Assembly: GCF_000419525.1 (NCBI RefSeq)
Contig: NZ_ATTE01000001.1
Span: 4,028,501-4,092,500, forward strand
Origin: Leucothrix mucor DSM 2157
GTDB lineage: Bacteria; Pseudomonadota; Gammaproteobacteria; Thiotrichales; Thiotrichaceae
Length of the DNA: 64,000 bases
Direction: 5' to 3'
This document shows positions 18,255-43,502 of the stretch, piece by piece. Both the position numbers and the translations under genes were made by a program. Under the pieces are notes generated by a model, which ran no database searches, was not told where the DNA came from, and was given only the letters and a program-made list of their open reading frames with translations. How positions within the stretch are numbered: the first letter of the stretch is position 1; every line of letters begins with the position of its first letter.

Positions 18255-21200
18255 TTACTCCACCTTTGGCTCAGGTGACTTAATAGCCGCACTAATAGCC
18301 TTTTCCATTTTCTCAAAGACAGCCGCAAATTCCGACGCAACTAAATACCTTGGTGTTTCCATATCCGAAAGCGATTCACTCAGGCCTAAGCTACCCCACT
18401 CATGGAAAGACTGAGGCATGTAGAAGTTATTAAAGACCTTTCCATCTTCCTCAAGCCATACTTTATAAAGGTGTTTGGTGATCGCAGCCATGCCTTCCAG
18501 CTCAATAGCCTCTTTAAATAACGCAAGCTTTTCAGCCTTTAACTCAGGATGACGATCAAAGTATTTTTGTTGATCTCTACCCAAGTTTGTCAGTGCCAAA
18601 TTATGACCACCCTCATAAGCAACTAATTGAATTCGCTCATCAATATCGTTGATTTCCTTGTTCTGGGCAATCAGTTCTTTTCTTACGGCTTCTACGCCTC
18701 TTGGGTTGTTAGGGTCTTTAATAACATCGATAACCGCTTGCGCCGTTTTAGCGTTAAGCACGCCCTTTGCTACGTCATGGCAAGGCCCAAATTTGTGAGG
18801 GCTTATCACCTTATCATCATGGTTTAGGTTGCCAAAACAGGCATAAAAATAGGCCGAGGTCGCAACGGCATCAATTCTTTTGATGGATTCAGTCTTGGCG
18901 GCATGGCTAAGCATGATCTTGGTTAAAACAGGGTTGTTTTGCTTGGTTGCCAAGGTGACGATGAGGTTTTTCTCATCCATCCCTGACTCAAGCCAGATCT
19001 TAGCAACACGGTCTAATCTGTCTACATAAGCCATCTGCGCCATAAACTTGTAGGCTCTATCCAGATTCTTTAATACGTAAACCTCTGAGTTCTTTTGGAA
19101 GTCAAAACCAAATCTTTCAGCAACTCGTTTATCCCAGCCTTTTTTAAACTCGGTGAATAAGTCTTTCTGAAGATCTCTGATTGCATCACCGGTGTAGTGA
19201 TAAACCAGGTCAGGGCTGTGAAGCTCACTCTTATGCTCTTTAATATAGGTAAACCGATCAACAAAGACATCTTTAAAGTCCCCGTTTCTATCGTCTACCT
19301 GTATTTTCAACTTCCCTTTAGCCGCTCCTGTATAGCCTAACCAGTAAGCGCTCATATAAGGAATTTTTAAAGCAAGCTTGTCGAAGAAGTTACCTTTTTT
19401 GTATTGGATGTCAGCAATGAATTGGTTGTTGCCAGTGTATTCATTATCAACGAGCTTATTGCAGTTAAAATCTTCGATATCGATTGTGTAAAACTGGCTA
19501 AGCTTAGCCATAGTCGGCCCATGTGGGCGAAGTCTCAGTTGGCTATCTGAGGTAGCTTCGGGCTTAGTGAGTTCACCCATGCTAAGGCCTGTGTTCGTTA
19601 GCTTAAGCCCATCAACCAACGTGCTTAGATTTGAGCGACTCGCACACCATTTTAAATCCTCAAACTCGTCAGTGACTTCTTTTTTGAACTTGTAAAAGTA
19701 GTCTAAGTAACCCGCTCTCATATTGCGGTATGAGACCACTTCATCATCCGATGTTTTTAGGTAATCCTCGAAGCGATCAAAAAACTGAGAAACGTACTGT
19801 TCCTGCCGGTGATTAGCCAGTCCTATAAAGTATTTCTGGCTAGCAAATGCACCATTCCACACCTCATTACTAAGCTCTAAAAACACCTTAGAGTCTTTAT
19901 TCAGTGACTCATTAAAGTAGTTAGCCATATCGGTGACGTAATACTCGGTCGCATTGTGAGGCACATTTATCCAAACATTGGACTGGGTAACATTGGCAAG
20001 CTCAACAATGACTTCATACGGTAAACCTCTCCATTTTTCTTCAGGTTTTATGTATGAGTTGCCCCAGAACTGATCGTGCAGTTTTGCCCGGTCGGTTGAG
20101 TTTCTGGCGTACTTCATCAAGCAGTTTCCGTAGTCCTCATTCGGATTTACATAGTTCCAGTTAAACTCCAGCGATTTTTTTCTTAAGCTAATGAGTTGTT
20201 CTTTTATCGGTGCTAGTGCTTTTTCACTTTCCCGGATGCGGTAATCAAACGTCATCAGGTTTAAATACTGATTGTCAGAGAGAAGGTCATGAATGATTGA
20301 CTCAATCGACTCTATTTCTTGTTCAGTATAAAAAATCTCATTATCTTCATTTTTAAATTCTTTAAACGACTTGAGGATAGCGTCTGTATCAATCAGCTCA
20401 GCCCTGATTAACTCAGGTTCCAGCGCTTTTAACATGCCCAACAGTGTTATGTTGGTGGTATGCCTTAAATACGTTGCCTCTAGCGCTTCCTGGGGAAGAG
20501 AGTAAACATTTCTGGCTTTAACATAAGTGGTCACACACTCAAAAGGGGACTTAGGTGATGACAAGGTCATATTCATCACTCTGAGGGTGGAAAATGGTTT
20601 GATGTACTTTAAATAGTCAGGATTAAAGACGATCTTGCCTGCCAGCACGTCCTCATGGTTTACGGTCGGCAGTATTAAGTGAAAATTCTTTAAGTGGGTA
20701 TCGCTGTTTGCGGTAAACGTGAGCTTGATGCCTTCCTTGGATGGTGCTTCTGGTATCGCAATATCCAAGCAGCTTTTAGCGGAGGCATACTTTTCCGGAC
20801 ACGATACGATTTCAGCGAAGCCCTCAACCTTAAGATCAACATCGCCATCAAAATACACAGGATAAATGCCTTCAGGCACATCGCCAACTTTGGCTGACTC
20901 CAAGCCCGTTGTGTAAACAAAGCTGCCACGCTTGAGAAGCACCGTTTTATCATTATTGACTGTGACGCCAAATTCACTAAAGCGGTTATACCTTGTTTGC
21001 GCGAAGCGATTAACCAAGCCTCTGATTTTAAAATTATCTAAGGTTTGATAATCCTTAGGATCAAACGACTCTCTTTCTGTTTGATCGTCTTCAAGTGCTC
21101 GGCTGATGGTATAAATATTGTCTGCTTGAGGGGTTGCGTATTCATCAATAAAAACGCTGTTGACGATGGGATCTTCAGAGTTGAAGTTAACGGATGCTAC

Positions 21201-21440
21201 ACCCTTGGTCTCTAAAGACTCTTGTACTCTCTCAAAGATGCTCTCATCAAAGGGCCTAAATGACTTGGCTAAGTCCCCCATGATTTGTGCATGCGTCACG
21301 ATATCAACTTGTGACTGTGGCTCGTTGAGGTTAATTCCCATTGAAATGGGTATGTGTTTTTTGCTGGTACTCTCAGGCGGATTAGCACTAACAGACAACA
21401 CCCCAAAAAAACTTAAGCTAATAATTGTTATAAAGCGCAT
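18255..21440 (-). CDS. Large secreted protein with a clan-A glycoside-hydrolase-like (NEVWN/YEGG) core
   Basis: The 1061-residue protein has a signal peptide (MRFITIISLSFFGVLSVSAN). The middle and C-terminal parts show paired acidic motifs typical of retaining clan-A hydrolases. VFLELSNEVWNGAFASQKYF has the putative acid/base Glu526, and RIQLVAYEGGHNLA has the putative nucleophile Glu943. LPYEVIVELANVTQSNVWIN and VPHNATEYYV precede the first motif as in proteins often labelled cellulose-binding. The spacing between the two glutamates (~417 residues) is much longer than in ordinary GH5-like enzymes, implying large insertions. The first ~350 residues are beta-rich with no recognised domain. It may act on a surface or environmental polysaccharide. 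It lies downstream of structured RNA copy C and is transcribed from 21440. Confidence 0.6.
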   Translation of the reverse strand: MRFITIISLSFFGVLSVSANPPESTSKKHIPISMGINLNEPQSQVDIVTHAQIMGDLAKSFRPFDESIFERVQESLETKGVASVNFNSEDPIVNSVFIDEYATPQADNIYTISRALEDDQTERESFDPKDYQTLDNFKIRGLVNRFAQTRYNRFSEFGVTVNNDKTVLLKRGSFVYTTGLESAKVGDVPEGIYPVYFDGDVDLKVEGFAEIVSCPEKYASAKSCLDIAIPEAPSKEGIKLTFTANSDTHLKNFHLILPTVNHEDVLAGKIVFNPDYLKYIKPFSTLRVMNMTLSSPKSPFECVTTYVKARNVYSLPQEALEATYLRHTTNITLLGMLKALEPELIRAELIDTDAILKSFKEFKNEDNEIFYTEQEIESIESIIHDLLSDNQYLNLMTFDYRIRESEKALAPIKEQLISLRKKSLEFNWNYVNPNEDYGNCLMKYARNSTDRAKLHDQFWGNSYIKPEEKWRGLPYEVIVELANVTQSNVWINVPHNATEYYVTDMANYFNESLNKDSKVFLELSNEVWNGAFASQKYFIGLANHRQEQYVSQFFDRFEDYLKTSDDEVVSYRNMRAGYLDYFYKFKKEVTDEFEDLKWCASRSNLSTLVDGLKLTNTGLSMGELTKPEATSDSQLRLRPHGPTMAKLSQFYTIDIEDFNCNKLVDNEYTGNNQFIADIQYKKGNFFDKLALKIPYMSAYWLGYTGAAKGKLKIQVDDRNGDFKDVFVDRFTYIKEHKSELHSPDLVYHYTGDAIRDLQKDLFTEFKKGWDKRVAERFGFDFQKNSEVYVLKNLDRAYKFMAQMAYVDRLDRVAKIWLESGMDEKNLIVTLATKQNNPVLTKIMLSHAAKTESIKRIDAVATSAYFYACFGNLNHDDKVISPHKFGPCHDVAKGVLNAKTAQAVIDVIKDPNNPRGVEAVRKELIAQNKEINDIDERIQLVAYEGGHNLALTNLGRDQQKYFDRHPELKAEKLALFKEAIELEGMAAITKHLYKVWLEEDGKVFNNFYMPQSFHEWGSLGLSESLSDMETPRYLVASEFAAVFEKMEKAISAAIKSPEPKVE

Positions 21441-21576
21441 TAAAATATCCTTGGGTTAAGTCTTATTGTTCGCGAGTATTTGAGGCAACTTGCATGTTCT
21501 AAGAGCATATCGGATTGTGCTTTAATTGCAACTGTCCATAAGAGAGGGGCATTAGCGGTACTTGAGTTTGGGGCAT

Positions 21577-21612
21577 AAAAAAACGCCCTTTGCCGGGGGA
21601 AGCAAAGAGCGC
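21577..21612 (-). terminator. Intrinsic terminator of the copy C RNA
   Basis: An 11-bp stem (plus-strand positions 583-593 with 602-612 of the 21-kb block) carries one G-U type pair and is followed by seven Ts on the minus strand. It is nearly identical to the terminator hairpin of copy B at 43274-43310. Confidence 0.8.
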
Positions 21613-21682
21613 TGGGGGGGGTGAGATTGTCGATGATCTTATTTTTATTATTAGTAGATCGATCTTCTCGGGGCTTGCTGGT
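21577..21682 (-). repeat. Dispersed structured repeat, copy C
   Basis: It is homologous over its whole length to copy B (43203-43310): the ACCAGCAAGCCCCGAGA start, the CTA.TAATAATAAAAATAA loop and the AGCGCTCTTTGCTTCCCCCG terminator arm are shared. Differences fall largely as paired changes in the stem. Confidence 0.85.
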
Positions 21683-21731: not shown

Positions 21732-21748
21732 TGCAGATCGCGTGCCAA
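21732..21748 (-). promoter_or_regulatory. Sigma54 (RpoN) promoter, -24/-12
   Basis: TTGGCACGCGATCTGCA on the minus strand matches the consensus YTGGCACGNNNNTTGCW at all but one fixed position, with the obligatory GG-N10-GC spacing. The expected start is near 21721, about 45 nt before the conserved CAAGCCCC block of copy C. It requires an AAA+ enhancer-binding activator; none is encoded in this window. Confidence 0.7.
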
Positions 21749-21901
21749 CTCTGGTTAAAATTATTTAAGTAACTGATAAGTATTGAATTTTATTGTTTTC
21801 AAGTGTTTTGGAAATAAGCTTTGTCACTTTCAGAAAGTGTCAGCATACGACGCAATAGTTACATTTCTGTCACTTATCAACGATTACGACCCATCAAAAC
21901 A

Positions 21902-21958: not shown

Positions 21959-22747
21959 CTAGGTGTTTAAGCGCTTCTGACGCATCCCATCCCGAATCAG
22001 CGCTTTGAGCAAACTAATGCCCATTAGTATCATAATGAATGAGAATGGAATCGCGCCGATAATCATGGCGGATTTAATCGCGCCTAAACCACCGGCTAAT
22101 AACAAGGCCGCAATCACGGCGGTCAATGCCGATCCCCAGATTATGATGTGCTTAGGACCTGTTGCTTCTGTTTGCGCACCACCGGCATTAATGGTGTTAA
22201 CTACTAGCACGGCAGAGTCGGCAGAAGTCACTAAGTAGGTTAACAGCAGTATAACGATCATCACCGACATAACGGTTGCCAGCGTGGGTGACAGCATAAT
22301 GTTGATTACTTCATACAGTTGGTAAGTCAGGTTAGAGCCGAAAATCTTTCCCGCTGCCTCGCCACTGAGCTCTAAATCAACCGCGGTGCCTCCAACAAAG
22401 GTAAACCACATAAAGCACATCAGCGAAGGGGCTGCGATTGCGCCCAGAACAAACTCGCGAATGGTTCTATTTTTAGAGATGCGCGCCAGAAAGATACCAA
22501 CGAAAGGTGCGAAGGCAATCCACCAAGCCCAATAGAATACCGTCCAGCCTGTTTGCCATGCACCGAGCTCTGTGGATGGCTTCCAAACAGTGAAGGTCAT
22601 CGCAGGGAGGTGAACGATGTAGGAGAAGATGCCTTTACCCAGTAATTCGAATGCCAGCATGGTTGAGCCGAAGATCAGGAAGAATCCCAACAGTGAGAAT
22701 GACAACACCATATTGATATTGCTCAGCCATTTAATGCCTTTACCCAA
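21959..22747 (-). pseudogene. BCCT transporter, 3' part (frameshifted)
   Basis: This piece encodes the C-terminal ~260 residues of a betaine/carnitine/choline transporter, beginning GKGIKWLSNINMVLSFSL. It contains the BCCT signatures FYWAWWIAFAPFVGIFLARI and the final helices, with LVTSADSAVLVVNTIN. It continues without any missing residue from the 5' part (22740-23699) once one base is removed from the GGG at the junction; together they make a normal-length transporter of about 580 residues. See the 5' part for context. A low-quality base could equally explain the break. Confidence 0.85.
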
Positions 22748-23699
22748 CGCCTGACAATGCCGAGAGTGTGGATAGCAACATAACCACCACTAAACAGACT
22801 AGCAAGGCGGCGGTGGTAGGCTCTGGCGTGTCGCCAGTGGTCATTAACCAGCTTGCGCCAGTGATATTGTGCAGGCCAGAAGCAAAGGTGCTAAGCCCTA
22901 ATCCAATAGTCTGAGCGACACCAAGAATCGTGGCAATTACTGCTGCAATATCAATGATATGGCCAAGAGGGCCTTCCAGTGAACGGCCAAATATTGGGGT
23001 TAGGCCTGAACGTATAGTTAGAGGCAAGCCGCGTGAGTAACTAAAGAATGCCAGCGAGATACCAATCAGCGCATAGCAAGCCCATGGGCCAAATCCCCAG
23101 TGTAGGAAAGTGTAGCGATAAACCGAATCCAAAGCCGCTTCCGACTTAGGCGCGATAATGCCATCAATCGCCGCCAAGCTGCCTGCTGCAACTTGATCGT
23201 TATACATGGCGAATACATCAGCGCCTTCTGGAACAGCAATATTACTACCGGCAAACGCCGCCATAATGGCTTGCTTGCTCATAATAATGTCGGGGTTGCT
23301 GCCTAAGTGCCAGATGGGCTCAGCGGCTGCGTAACCTAGCATGCCGATACCGATACCCGCCCCAAACATCATAGAAAACCATGAGAAATTCGAGAACTCC
23401 GGTACGCCATCTGCAGTGCCTAATTTGATCCGCCCAAAAGATGGAACAACTGCCAGTATCAGGCAAACGCTCATGAAAAAGGCGATGGTGTATAGGTAGT
23501 AGGTGTTGAGGTTTTGGAAGGACCAGTTTTGGATTTCTAGTAAGATTTTCCCGACTCGCTCCGGAGAGGCGACAGCCCAAATAACGATGAGTGCGACGAT
23601 GAGTTTGGATATTAGCGCGATGGTTTGGTTAAAGCCTTTATAGAAACCGCTATCCTGCGTTTCTATATTCAGCTCCTTGACGGGCGGTGAAATGGACAC
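22740..23699 (-). pseudogene. BCCT family betaine/choline/carnitine transporter, 5' part (frameshifted)
   Basis: This is the N-terminal ~320 residues of a Na+-type BCCT carrier. GTG at 23699 is preferred because AGGAG lies 7 nt upstream. The frame has the helix-3 glycine motif MFGAGIGIGMLGYAAAEPIW and the tryptophan-box region LHWGFGPWACYALIGISL. The frame reads LSALSGVG and hits TAA exactly where family members continue SGVxKGIKWLSNINM. An extra G in GTTGGGTAAA at about 22744-22746 accounts for the break. BCCT proteins import quaternary amines; the location beside a GbcAB-type oxygenase system indicates it fed the betaine catabolic pathway at 23.8-31.2 kb. It is a genuine lesion or a sequencing error. 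Confidence 0.88.
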
Positions 23700-23851
23700 A
23701 TTGCTTCTCCTTTGTGATTGATCGGGTGTGGCGTAGGTGATGACTTTAAAACTGTCGGCACAGCGAGGCTGAGACCCAAAAATGCTCAGCACGGGGACTG
23801 CGTGTTTACTCGTTTAAGTGTTGGGGCGTGGTGGCTAAGAAAGCCGGTGGA

Positions 23852-40698: not shown

Positions 40699-41895
40699 TT
40701 ACAGCATTGGCATAACCGCTGAATGATTCAGGTGGTTAGCCAGTGCTTTAGGTGTCATGCCATCACTGGTTTTAGCGTTACGGCTCAAACCCTGACTAAT
40801 CAGGTAAGCGGCTGTATCGGCGTGGCCAAAACGGGCTGCTTCGTGCAATGCGGTCCATCTTTTCACCGTGAGTGCGTTTTTATTGGCACCTTTTGCGATT
40901 AAGTACTGAACGACCGATAACTGACCCTTGGCAGCAGCTTCATGTAGAGGCGTTTCCTCAAACTTATCAACGGCTTCAATATTTGCACCACCTTCTACAA
41001 GTGACTTGACCACATCCAGCAAGCCTTGTGCGGCTGCTTTGTGCAGTAAAGTTTCACCGATACCATCCGATACATTGGTCGAGGCACCTGCTGCCGTCAG
41101 CAATGAAACGATTGGAGCACTTTTGGCACGGATTGCCATTTGGATTGGTGTACCTTGACGGCTACCTGTATTGGCATTAGCACCATACTTAAGTAATTGT
41201 TGAACGCTGCTAACTTGTCCACGTGCAATGGCTGCATGTAATACCTGACCGCCTGGCCCTGAAGAGTTAGGATCTGCTGAGTACTCCAGTAATTTTTGGA
41301 CTAACGCCGTGTTACCAGATTCAATTGCTATGTATAGCGCACTGCCTTGTGGACCCTGATAGCTAGGATCAGCCCCATTTTTAAGCAGTAAGTCGATAGT
41401 TGGTTGATGGCTTTTGCTGATTGCCAGTTGCAGTGGCGTTAAGCCATTACCATTTTTAAGATTGGTATCTGCTCCGTATAAAATCAGTTGGTCGGCGATG
41501 TCATAATTGCCACGGCGAATGGCGGTATACAAGACAGGCTCACGATTGCCGCCGACATAATCGACGTCCGCGCCCATTTTGATGAAGCGCTCGGCTTCTT
41601 TCAGGTTGCCCGCATTTAAGTTATCTGCCAATGCTTTTGAAACAACAGGGCTACCGGTTGGGCGGCCCGGAACAGCGCGGCGTTGTAAATTACGTTTAAC
41701 GAGTTTAGGTGCCGGAGCGGCTTCTGGCGCAGCAGTTGGCTCTGCCGAGCTGGTATTTTGGTTATTGTCTGTGTCATTTGCTGTTAATGCTGGAGTCGAC
41801 GCTGGCGTTATTGTTGCTGATTCCCCACCACACCCCGATAGAAGAATTAGCATTGCCGGTAACGTGACCGCAGACATGAATCTTAAGAAAATCAT
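40699..41895 (-). CDS. Ankyrin-repeat lipoprotein
   Basis: The protein has 398 residues from the ATG at 41895, which has GGAAAGGG 6 nt ahead; upstream extension is unsupported. A lipoprotein signal ends LPAMLILLSGCGGES. A low-complexity Ala/Pro/Thr linker (~25-75) follows, then about nine ankyrin repeats from residue ~90 to the end (for example GNGLTPLQLAISKSHQPTID and FEETPLHEAAAKGQLSVVQY). Ankyrin domains mediate protein-protein contacts; as a lipoprotein it is likely periplasmic or outer-membrane facing. It ends 14 bp from the convergent comM gene. Confidence 0.88.
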   Translation of the reverse strand: MIFLRFMSAVTLPAMLILLSGCGGESATITPASTPALTANDTDNNQNTSSAEPTAAPEAAPAPKLVKRNLQRRAVPGRPTGSPVVSKALADNLNAGNLKEAERFIKMGADVDYVGGNREPVLYTAIRRGNYDIADQLILYGADTNLKNGNGLTPLQLAISKSHQPTIDLLLKNGADPSYQGPQGSALYIAIESGNTALVQKLLEYSADPNSSGPGGQVLHAAIARGQVSSVQQLLKYGANANTGSRQGTPIQMAIRAKSAPIVSLLTAAGASTNVSDGIGETLLHKAAAQGLLDVVKSLVEGGANIEAVDKFEETPLHEAAAKGQLSVVQYLIAKGANKNALTVKRWTALHEAARFGHADTAAYLISQGLSRNAKTSDGMTPKALANHLNHSAVMPML

Positions 41896-42096
41896 GTGTT
41901 GACCCTTTCCGTAGTAGTCTTTTTTATTGGTTAAATGCCCTTGTACTGGAGAAAGTAAGATCAAGGTTCGTTGCAGCCGAATGGCCATGACGAGTTATCC
42001 GCTAAGAGCTCAGCAATCAATGGCTGAGACAATATAGCGCAGTTTGTTGGTATATGTCAGTTAATAGTTATGTTGAGCAGGGGTATATCGAGGGAT

Positions 42097-42738: not shown

Positions 42739-42997
42739 AGGCCGGGACCTCGGGTAGGGGCTTTATTAAACCGACTGAGTCAGAGTTATGGGGTGATTCA
42801 GAGCTTACAGGATTCGGTACTGAGCGGCAAAGCTATTCAGAATGGGTCAGAGTGTGACAGAAACGTGTTTTCGCTGTTAGAAGCTGACAGCTCATTACTA
42901 AATTGTCACCTTATGACGGGAATAACCGTGTCAGGAGTATTTCTATATTAGCTAATAATATTTTATTTATCAGTGACTTACTGAGTTAAATAAAAAG

Positions 42998-43014
42998 TTG
43001 GCCTCGTTGTTGCA
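42998..43014 (+). promoter_or_regulatory. Sigma54 (RpoN) promoter of the tandem RNA locus
   Basis: TTGGCCTCGTTGTTGCA has the obligatory GG (43000-43001) and GC (43012-43013) separated by 10 nt and a perfect TTGCA -12 half; the CACG part of the -24 half is not conserved. The predicted start is near 43025, about 33 nt before the CAAGCCCC block of copy A. It is weaker than the site at 21.7 kb, but supported by the same placement relative to a homologous element. Confidence 0.55.
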
Positions 43015-43053
43015 ACTATCATTACATAACGAGACTTAAATAACATAGTAGTT

Positions 43054-43151
43054 AAAACAAGCCCCCGAGATGAAGAGTGGTTTAGTAAAACAAAAATAAA
43101 GCACCACCGATCTCAACCCCAGTGCCCCTAGCCTTCCCCAGCGAAGGGCAC
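43054..43151 (+). repeat. Dispersed structured repeat, copy A
   Basis: The outer stem is 43067-43071 with 43110-43114; the inner stem is 43077-43081 with 43103-43107. The 3' hairpin 43122-43151 has 9 of 11 possible pairs and no T-tract. It is the most diverged of the three copies but keeps both helices by paired changes. Confidence 0.8.
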
Positions 43152-43202
43152 AATTATAACAAACAGTATTGATTGAGTAATCAGTACCTAATAACAAGAT
43201 TT

Positions 43203-43310
43203 ACCAGCAAGCCCCGAGATTAAGAGCGATCTAGCAATAATAAAAATAAAATCATCGCCGATCTCAATCCCCAGCGCTCTTTGCTTCCCCCGGCAAAGGG
43301 CGCTTTTTTT
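43203..43310 (+). repeat. Dispersed structured repeat, copy B
   Basis: The outer stem is 43216-43220 with 43261-43265; the inner stem is 43226-43230 with 43254-43258. The loop at 43231-43253 contains AATAATAAAAATAAA. The terminator arms 43274-43284 and 43293-43303 are followed by seven Ts. Confidence 0.85.
43274..43310 (+). terminator. Intrinsic terminator of the tandem RNA
   Basis: GCGCTCTTTGC pairs with GCAAAGGGCGC (11 pairs, one U-G) around an 8-nt loop and is followed by T x7. The same hairpin ends copy C on the minus strand at 21.6 kb. Confidence 0.85.
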
Positions 43311-43502
43311 ATTCAAGCGACGCTCAATCCCTGAGCATCTAATCTGCAATGGCAAAGCATCCTTACTCTGTCCAGTGCTCTAGTTCCTTAAGATGCGTGT
43401 ATCTTAGGGAAGCAGGGCTTTGCAGACTATCGGTAGCAGACCACCTGAGCATTTAGCAGTATGAACTGCAGCTTAATATGGTCGACTACCGTTTATCGTT
43501 AC

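Follow-up and report, generated by a model that had tools for sequence, protein, structure and literature searches.

A putative family of multi-copy small RNAs in the Thiotrichaceae with control signals in common with the type IV pilin gene

What are the repeated, structured elements found in a 64,000-nucleotide stretch of Leucothrix mucor DSM 2157 DNA (the window), and what might switch them on? An earlier note on this DNA had described two tandem copies on the plus strand (A and B) and a third on the minus strand (C), and had proposed that they are under selection for RNA structure and that locus A/B encodes an autonomous small RNA. We searched the window, the L. mucor genome and related genomes for further copies, for compensatory change and for the signals that surround the elements.

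A structured module conserved across the Thiotrichaceae

All three copies are present and adopt one common fold, as previously described. Module A (43058-43158, plus strand) carries the CAAGCCCC seed, an A-rich apical loop and a second hairpin without a long U tract; its outer stem is formed by 43067-43071 and 43110-43114, its inner stem by 43077-43081 and 43103-43107, and its second hairpin by 43122-43127 and 43146-43151. Module B (43207-43316, plus strand) has the same seed and an A-rich loop and ends in a terminator with a T run behind it. Its outer stem pairs 43216-43220 with 43261-43265, its inner stem 43226-43230 with 43254-43258, and its terminator 43273-43284 with 43293-43304. Module C (21570-21678, minus strand) would be an sRNA of a single module, with a terminator. 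The inner stems read GTGGT/ACCAC in A, GCGAT/ATCGC in B and TCGAT/ATCGA in C, with changes on both sides at inner pairs 1, 2 and 4, and a T-A pair is exchanged for C-G at the second pair of the second hairpin, exactly as reported. The outer stem, given as GAGAT/ATCTC for all copies, holds in A and B; in C it is GAGA/TCTC, a stem of 4 bp from which the fifth position is absent. Each module folds more stably than 200 out of 200 dinucleotide shuffles (z-scores of -4.21, -3.88 and -3.49 for A, B and C, respectively).

A model built from the three window copies (R1) detected a fourth copy elsewhere in the L. mucor genome (G000:C1:3159630-3159736, minus strand, E 2e-16), besides three weak matches (E 0.10-0.24). 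A weak R1 match at G000:C1:4135974-4136094 (minus strand; locus L163, about 4135950-4136270) has a sigma-54 promoter and activator-like sites upstream, precedes a gene that by eye resembles ftsE, and has a counterpart in genome G003 (L153). It keeps the C-rich terminator loop and the A-rich tracts, not the usual stems, and may be a divergent relative of the sRNA family.

Compensatory change was assessed in an unfitted MAFFT alignment of 43 related copies, in which 10-13 copies are gapped at three positions of the outer stem. Both sides change at 19 of the 22 pairs and 94.4% of the cells pair, and neither value was reached by any of 500 shuffles. Compensatory cells numbered 160 versus 42.5 in the shuffles (0/500 reached this count); a lesser measure, further pair types, was reached by 8 of the 500. 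When the partners were slid by 1-3 columns, pairing dropped to 35-47%, a comparison in which the tested structure has an advantage since it was derived from copy B. When 24 Thiothrix-type copies were aligned on their own, 15 of 19 pairs changed on both sides and 91.8% of the cells paired. The modules share one order: a CAAGCCCC segment, the outer stem, an asymmetric purine-rich internal loop, the inner stem, an A-rich apical loop, a C-rich linker and a second hairpin, the loop of which is C-rich in the Leucothrix type. The earlier note had proposed testing covariation with further copies, and strong compensatory change is present in those examined; together with conservation across the family, it lends good support to selection on RNA structure.

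The RNA was found with another model (R3) in 57 of 63 Thiotrichaceae genomes, 43 of the 46 good ones and all eight genera. A pattern scan of named genomes yielded 52 stretches, 42 of which match R1 at E 1 or less, a few of them weakly; three of the 10 stretches without an R1 match are labelled Thiothrix or Thiotrichaceae. The matches in named genomes fall in Leucothrix, Thiothrix, Cocleimonas, other Thiotrichaceae and two bins labelled only Proteobacteria or Gammaproteobacteria. Cocleimonas-like copies also occur in a bin labelled Aquificaceae (L056 and L084; QOAQ01000052.1 and QOAQ01000080.1), the label or binning of which may be wrong. In Leucothrix pacifica, a TPP riboswitch (L042:6797-6900) lies near two copies.

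Outside the family, R1 had no match in 21 genomes of other families. A further model (R2), run over 369 genomes of the class with L. mucor and the family included, matched three: L. mucor, the family member G009, and G416, where the match (E 0.0066) spans a 357-codon open frame and was set aside. This R2 scan is weak evidence of absence because it scored 10 candidates per genome and missed the family member G011, which R3 finds. BLAST of the elements against plasmids gave no match, and no Rfam family lying over the elements reached its gathering score in scans of the window and 14 loci. Three Rfam matches were rejected: IS102 (23.9 bits, cut-off 46), CrcZ (RF01675; 19.8 bits against a cut-off of 95, which is chance level) and, in L021, Rp_sR47 (39.7, cut-off 60), which lies outside the element. 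A limited literature search, partly swamped by unrelated papers, turned up neither a Thiotrichaceae regulatory RNA nor a PilR-controlled sRNA in print. By these comparisons, the elements look like an uncatalogued family of small regulatory RNAs of Thiothrix, Leucothrix and their relatives.

Promoters, palindromes and predicted transcripts

Upstream of the first module (up to 450 nt), a sigma-54 -24/-12 promoter scoring 10-12 of 12 precedes all 64 RNA loci, whose sequences differ although their descent is not independent (67 clusters, three being left out for lack of upstream sequence). For comparison, of 2000 stretches drawn at random from these loci, some of them overlapping real promoters, 163 score as a sigma-54 promoter. 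The distance from the promoter to the first module downstream is 27-108 nt in 58 of the 64 loci and 141-263 nt in the other six. The putative promoter of A/B is TGGCCTCGTTGTTGCA (42999-43014, plus strand, 10 of 12) and that of C is TGGCACGCGATCTGCA (21732-21747, minus strand, 11 of 12); with the usual distance of about 12 nt from the promoter, transcription is predicted to start at about 43025 and 21721, respectively.

Further upstream, a palindrome recurs. Among the 4-mer dyads tried, TGTC-N6-TGAC was the most over-represented, occurring in 36 of 61 sequences against 0.7 expected (a pseudocount of 0.5 included). The palindrome TGTC-N7-GACA, at 7-8 of 8 matches, was found upstream of 56 of 61 RNA loci (dinucleotide shuffles: mean 3.8, maximum 9) and in its exact form in 33 of them, versus 0.16 in shuffles; three of the 64 loci, with less than 150 nt upstream, were left out of this count. 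It sits mostly about 90-125 nt upstream of the promoter. The five of the 61 RNA loci without a recognisable palindrome are all single-module: three belong to genus g8, one is labelled Cocleimonas and one only Thiotrichaceae. Locus A/B has three activator-like sites on the plus strand, each matching 7 of 8 and none exact, spaced by about 30 bp: 42845-42859, 42875-42889 and 42904-42918, at -154, -124 and -95 from the promoter. Two sites precede C on the minus strand, CGTCGTATGCTGACA at 21838-21852 and another at 21822-21836, again with 7 of 8 matches. The predicted sigma-54 promoters and activator-type sites are features beyond those seen in the earlier note.

The promoters and terminators predict a transcript of about 287 nt from A and B together (about 43025-43311) and one of about 146 nt from C (21721-21576), close to the lengths of about 290 and 145 nt previously guessed. 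A U tract (at least 7 T in 8 nt) ends 46 of 67 last modules, including 12 of 19 in arrays, and only 1 of 24 internal modules. This pattern fits one transcript per array: since internal modules mostly lack a strong terminator, one promoter would make a multi-module RNA.

Could the elements instead act in cis, as an attenuator or riboswitch-like leader of the gene that follows? C does lie about 130 bp before a co-directional gene of 1061 codons. However, downstream genes vary, 49 of the 62 found after the 67 clusters being on the opposite strand (by a crude ORF caller), and the U tract closes most last modules; such a role is thus very improbable. Locus A/B, as had been stated, has no co-directional gene downstream, the next being glyS on the opposite strand. 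That copies are both dispersed and tandem could also point to a mobile repeat of REP or MITE type, devoid of RNA function, yet the copy number is low, the fold is kept by compensatory changes, and each examined locus has its own sigma-54 promoter, most with an activator palindrome. Moreover, A/B keeps glyS as its neighbour in six Leucothrix genomes, two genomes of genus g5 and one unplaced bin. We regard a mobile repeat as the least probable explanation of all. The proposal of an autonomous small RNA is, for its part, well supported by the predicted promoter and terminator, the varied neighbours and the conservation of the element.

Several neighbours deserve mention in their own right. The 1061-codon gene after C (18255-21440, minus strand) has a secreted-looking start and no Pfam match. 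Upstream of C, a BCCT transporter gene (21959-23792, minus strand) is split over overlapping frames, 22740-23792 and 21959-22747. An ankyrin-repeat protein (40699-41988) is encoded near a CbiC gene, and in Leucothrix relatives these two genes are again found next to locus A/B.

Control signals in common with the type IV pilin gene

A pattern of one palindrome arm plus promoter gave 103 matches in seven genomes, versus 31 for the reversed pattern. The 12 regions that were followed include RNA loci and the type IV pilin genes of L. mucor, G006 and G010; only part of the 103 matches are RNA or pilin loci. In L154 (G035), L157 and L160 (G025), the same pattern also precedes genes that, judged by eye, encode a Met-Gly-repeat protein, small peptides whose leader is of the double-glycine type, and an IscA-like protein.

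Pilin loci were then scored across the family: from 30 fetched, 17 first-pilin loci of the family were counted, two second pilins and 11 loci of other families being left out. A sigma-54 element (11 of 12) together with a palindrome of 7-8 of 8 matches is present in 16 of the 17, where Markov resamples give a mean of 1.0 and a maximum of 4. The first-pilin locus of G002 has neither element. Neither of the two second pilins has the palindrome, and one of them has a sigma-54 score of 10. Among four scored pilin loci of other families, two have both elements (L171 of G043 and L190 of G048) and two do not. Genes for P-II served as a control: 26 of 30 loci were located and 21 of these scored, and none reaches 7 palindrome matches, although seven score 11-12 for sigma-54.

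Which activator might read these sites? In the L. mucor genome, a gene for PilS (Pfam 6TM_PilS) adjoins one for a sigma-54 response regulator, about 0.34 Mb along the genome; the pilin gene lies far away, at about 3.05 Mb. The genes pilS, sigma-54 regulator and pilin are consecutive in G007, G009 and G011; of the 17 relatives whose pilin was scored, only these 3 show the adjacency. PilS is found in 60 of the 63 family genomes; two of the three without a match (G004 and G033) carry the RNA, and five of the six family genomes without an RNA match have PilS. The PilR candidate falls below every NCBIfam cut-off (among the L. mucor sigma-54 activators only NtrC, NorR and RtcR pass) and takes its name from the adjoining PilS. 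Because the sites are common with the pilin gene, PilS is present in 60 of 63 genomes and pilS, regulator and pilin stand in a row in three relatives, PilR appears the likeliest activator of the RNA loci. The shared signals suggest that PilS-PilR would switch on both the pilin gene and the sRNAs.

PilR sites of P. aeruginosa have a TGTC form. In the PilSR regulon (pilA of P. aeruginosa and others), the published hallmark of a PilR site, as given in the accessible part of PMC6058289, is a NifA-like TGT-N11-AGA with nearby GTCT elements, which the TGTC-N7-GACA palindromes resemble only in part. In the genomes studied here, the promoter region of the RNA loci is arranged like that of the pilin gene. 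The terms 'sRNA' and 'small RNA' are absent from that same part of the PilR paper (PMC6058289).

Seeds, Hfq and the proposed mode of action

The RNAs combine A-rich and C-rich segments. With three of the 64 loci left out for a distant promoter, 59 of 61 first modules contain AANAANAA (shuffles 7.8, maximum 13), and so do 50 of 59 leaders (shuffles 22.7, maximum 28). The first 15 nt of the modules contain GCCCC in 70 of 91 cases and AAGCCC in 76 of 91. Six short modules without the A-rich loop keep their C-rich parts, CAAGCCCC in four and CAAACCCC in two. Hfq is encoded in the L. mucor genome, and A-rich AANAANAA tracts would suit its distal face. This combination of C-rich seeds with A-rich tracts suggests that the RNAs pair, with the help of Hfq, with G-rich sites in mRNAs.

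Searching three Leucothrix genomes for GGGGCTTGCT yielded 36 places, 14 of which coincide in position with the RNAs. Of the remaining 22, 18 were inspected; several lie near possible starts, two of them, as judged by eye, where the signal peptide of a transporter binding protein is encoded. In 19 orthologues read for one candidate, the match is exact only in L. mucor, one Leucothrix copy differing at one base and another at two. No conserved mRNA target site was found among these places or in the orthologues of that candidate. In duplex energies computed for 39 window genes plus pilS, pilR and pilA, pilA was weak (-5.4) and outside the top 12.

Could the RNA work mainly by using its AANAANAA motifs to capture Hfq, whether or not a Crc-like partner takes part, and so relieve repression of other mRNAs? 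CrcZ and CrcY of Pseudomonas (CbrB/sigma-54) have a sigma-54 promoter, more than one copy per genome and such motifs, here strongly enriched in both leader and module. In contrast, the present RNAs are built of structured two-hairpin modules with conserved C-rich seeds and have palindromes in common with pilin, and the CrcZ model scored at chance level. The invariant columns include unpaired C-rich ones as well as A columns. Moreover, CbrAB is called exclusive to Pseudomonads in the available parts of PMC6296734 and PMC8871633, and the palindromes differ from the TGTTAC subsites of CbrB described in the former (PMC6296734). Since GCCCC marks the modules, and the short ones drop the A-rich loop and retain the C-rich parts, Hfq-assisted antisense pairing is favoured and a pure Hfq sponge seems unlikely. 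The same sRNAs might also answer to another enhancer-binding protein that controls pilin as well: 10 of 13 activator-domain matches in L. mucor are clear sigma-54 activators, several without an assigned name. Given the regulator standing between pilS and pilin in three relatives and the palindrome at 16 of 17 pilin promoters, however, we find this alternative quite unlikely. The promoter type and the A-rich motifs had also brought CbrB/CrcZ, GlmY/GlmZ and NtrC/NrsZ into consideration; the site in common with pilin favours PilR instead.

We therefore favour, with a probability of roughly 0.7, a Thiotrichaceae family of autonomous, multi-copy sRNAs that would be activated by PilR and sigma-54 and would act by Hfq-assisted antisense repression along with the pilus programme. 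The family, the fold, the predicted promoters, the shared activator-type sites and the autonomy are read directly from the DNA; we infer transcription, binding of PilR and Hfq, antisense action and targets. Phosphorylated PilR, the likely pilin activator, would bind the TGTC-N7-GACA palindromes about 100 bp upstream and, at the -24/-12 promoter, activate the RNA polymerase that carries sigma-54. The transcript would begin with an A-rich leader and continue with one to three structured modules, each about 105 nt long and displaying the unpaired conserved CAAGCCCC, other C-rich segments and, in most cases, an A-rich loop. Hfq would bind the A-rich tracts, and the C-rich seeds would pair with mRNAs at G-rich regions where translation starts and so repress these mRNAs during the pilus programme.

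Sigma-54-controlled multi-copy sRNAs are already known; what appears new is a Thiotrichaceae family with control signals in common with the pilin gene. The Qrr sRNAs of Vibrio form a LuxO/sigma-54 family, and the present RNAs resemble them in having several copies per genome, a sigma-54 promoter with an NtrC-type activator and a presumed Hfq-dependent antisense action. They differ in their activator site and in their tandem modules under one promoter, and the Qrr covariance model gave no match in the Rfam scans of the window and 14 loci. NrsZ of Pseudomonas, an NtrC/sigma-54 sRNA, is similarly made of repeated stem-loop units, but the activator site here differs from the NtrC consensus, and the link is to pilin, not to nitrogen genes. 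LhrC, NmsR and CcsR are sibling sRNAs that occur as several similar or tandem copies and direct C-rich seeds against G-rich ribosome-binding sites; the present RNAs look similar to them in copies and seeds and different in hosts, promoters and folds.

These filamentous sulfur bacteria are important for the sulfur cycle and for the bulking of sludge. In the Thiotrichaceae examined, an RNA family absent from Rfam is nearly universal (57/63) and is tied to type IV pili by its putative control signals. On balance we lean towards a PilS-PilR system with a family-wide RNA arm, in which up to six or seven modules per genome, single or arrayed, would pass the state of the pilus post-transcriptionally to many genes, with antisense seeds and Hfq capture combined in the same molecule. 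If PilR does drive these RNAs, a system studied for its control of pilin would gain a post-transcriptional regulon.
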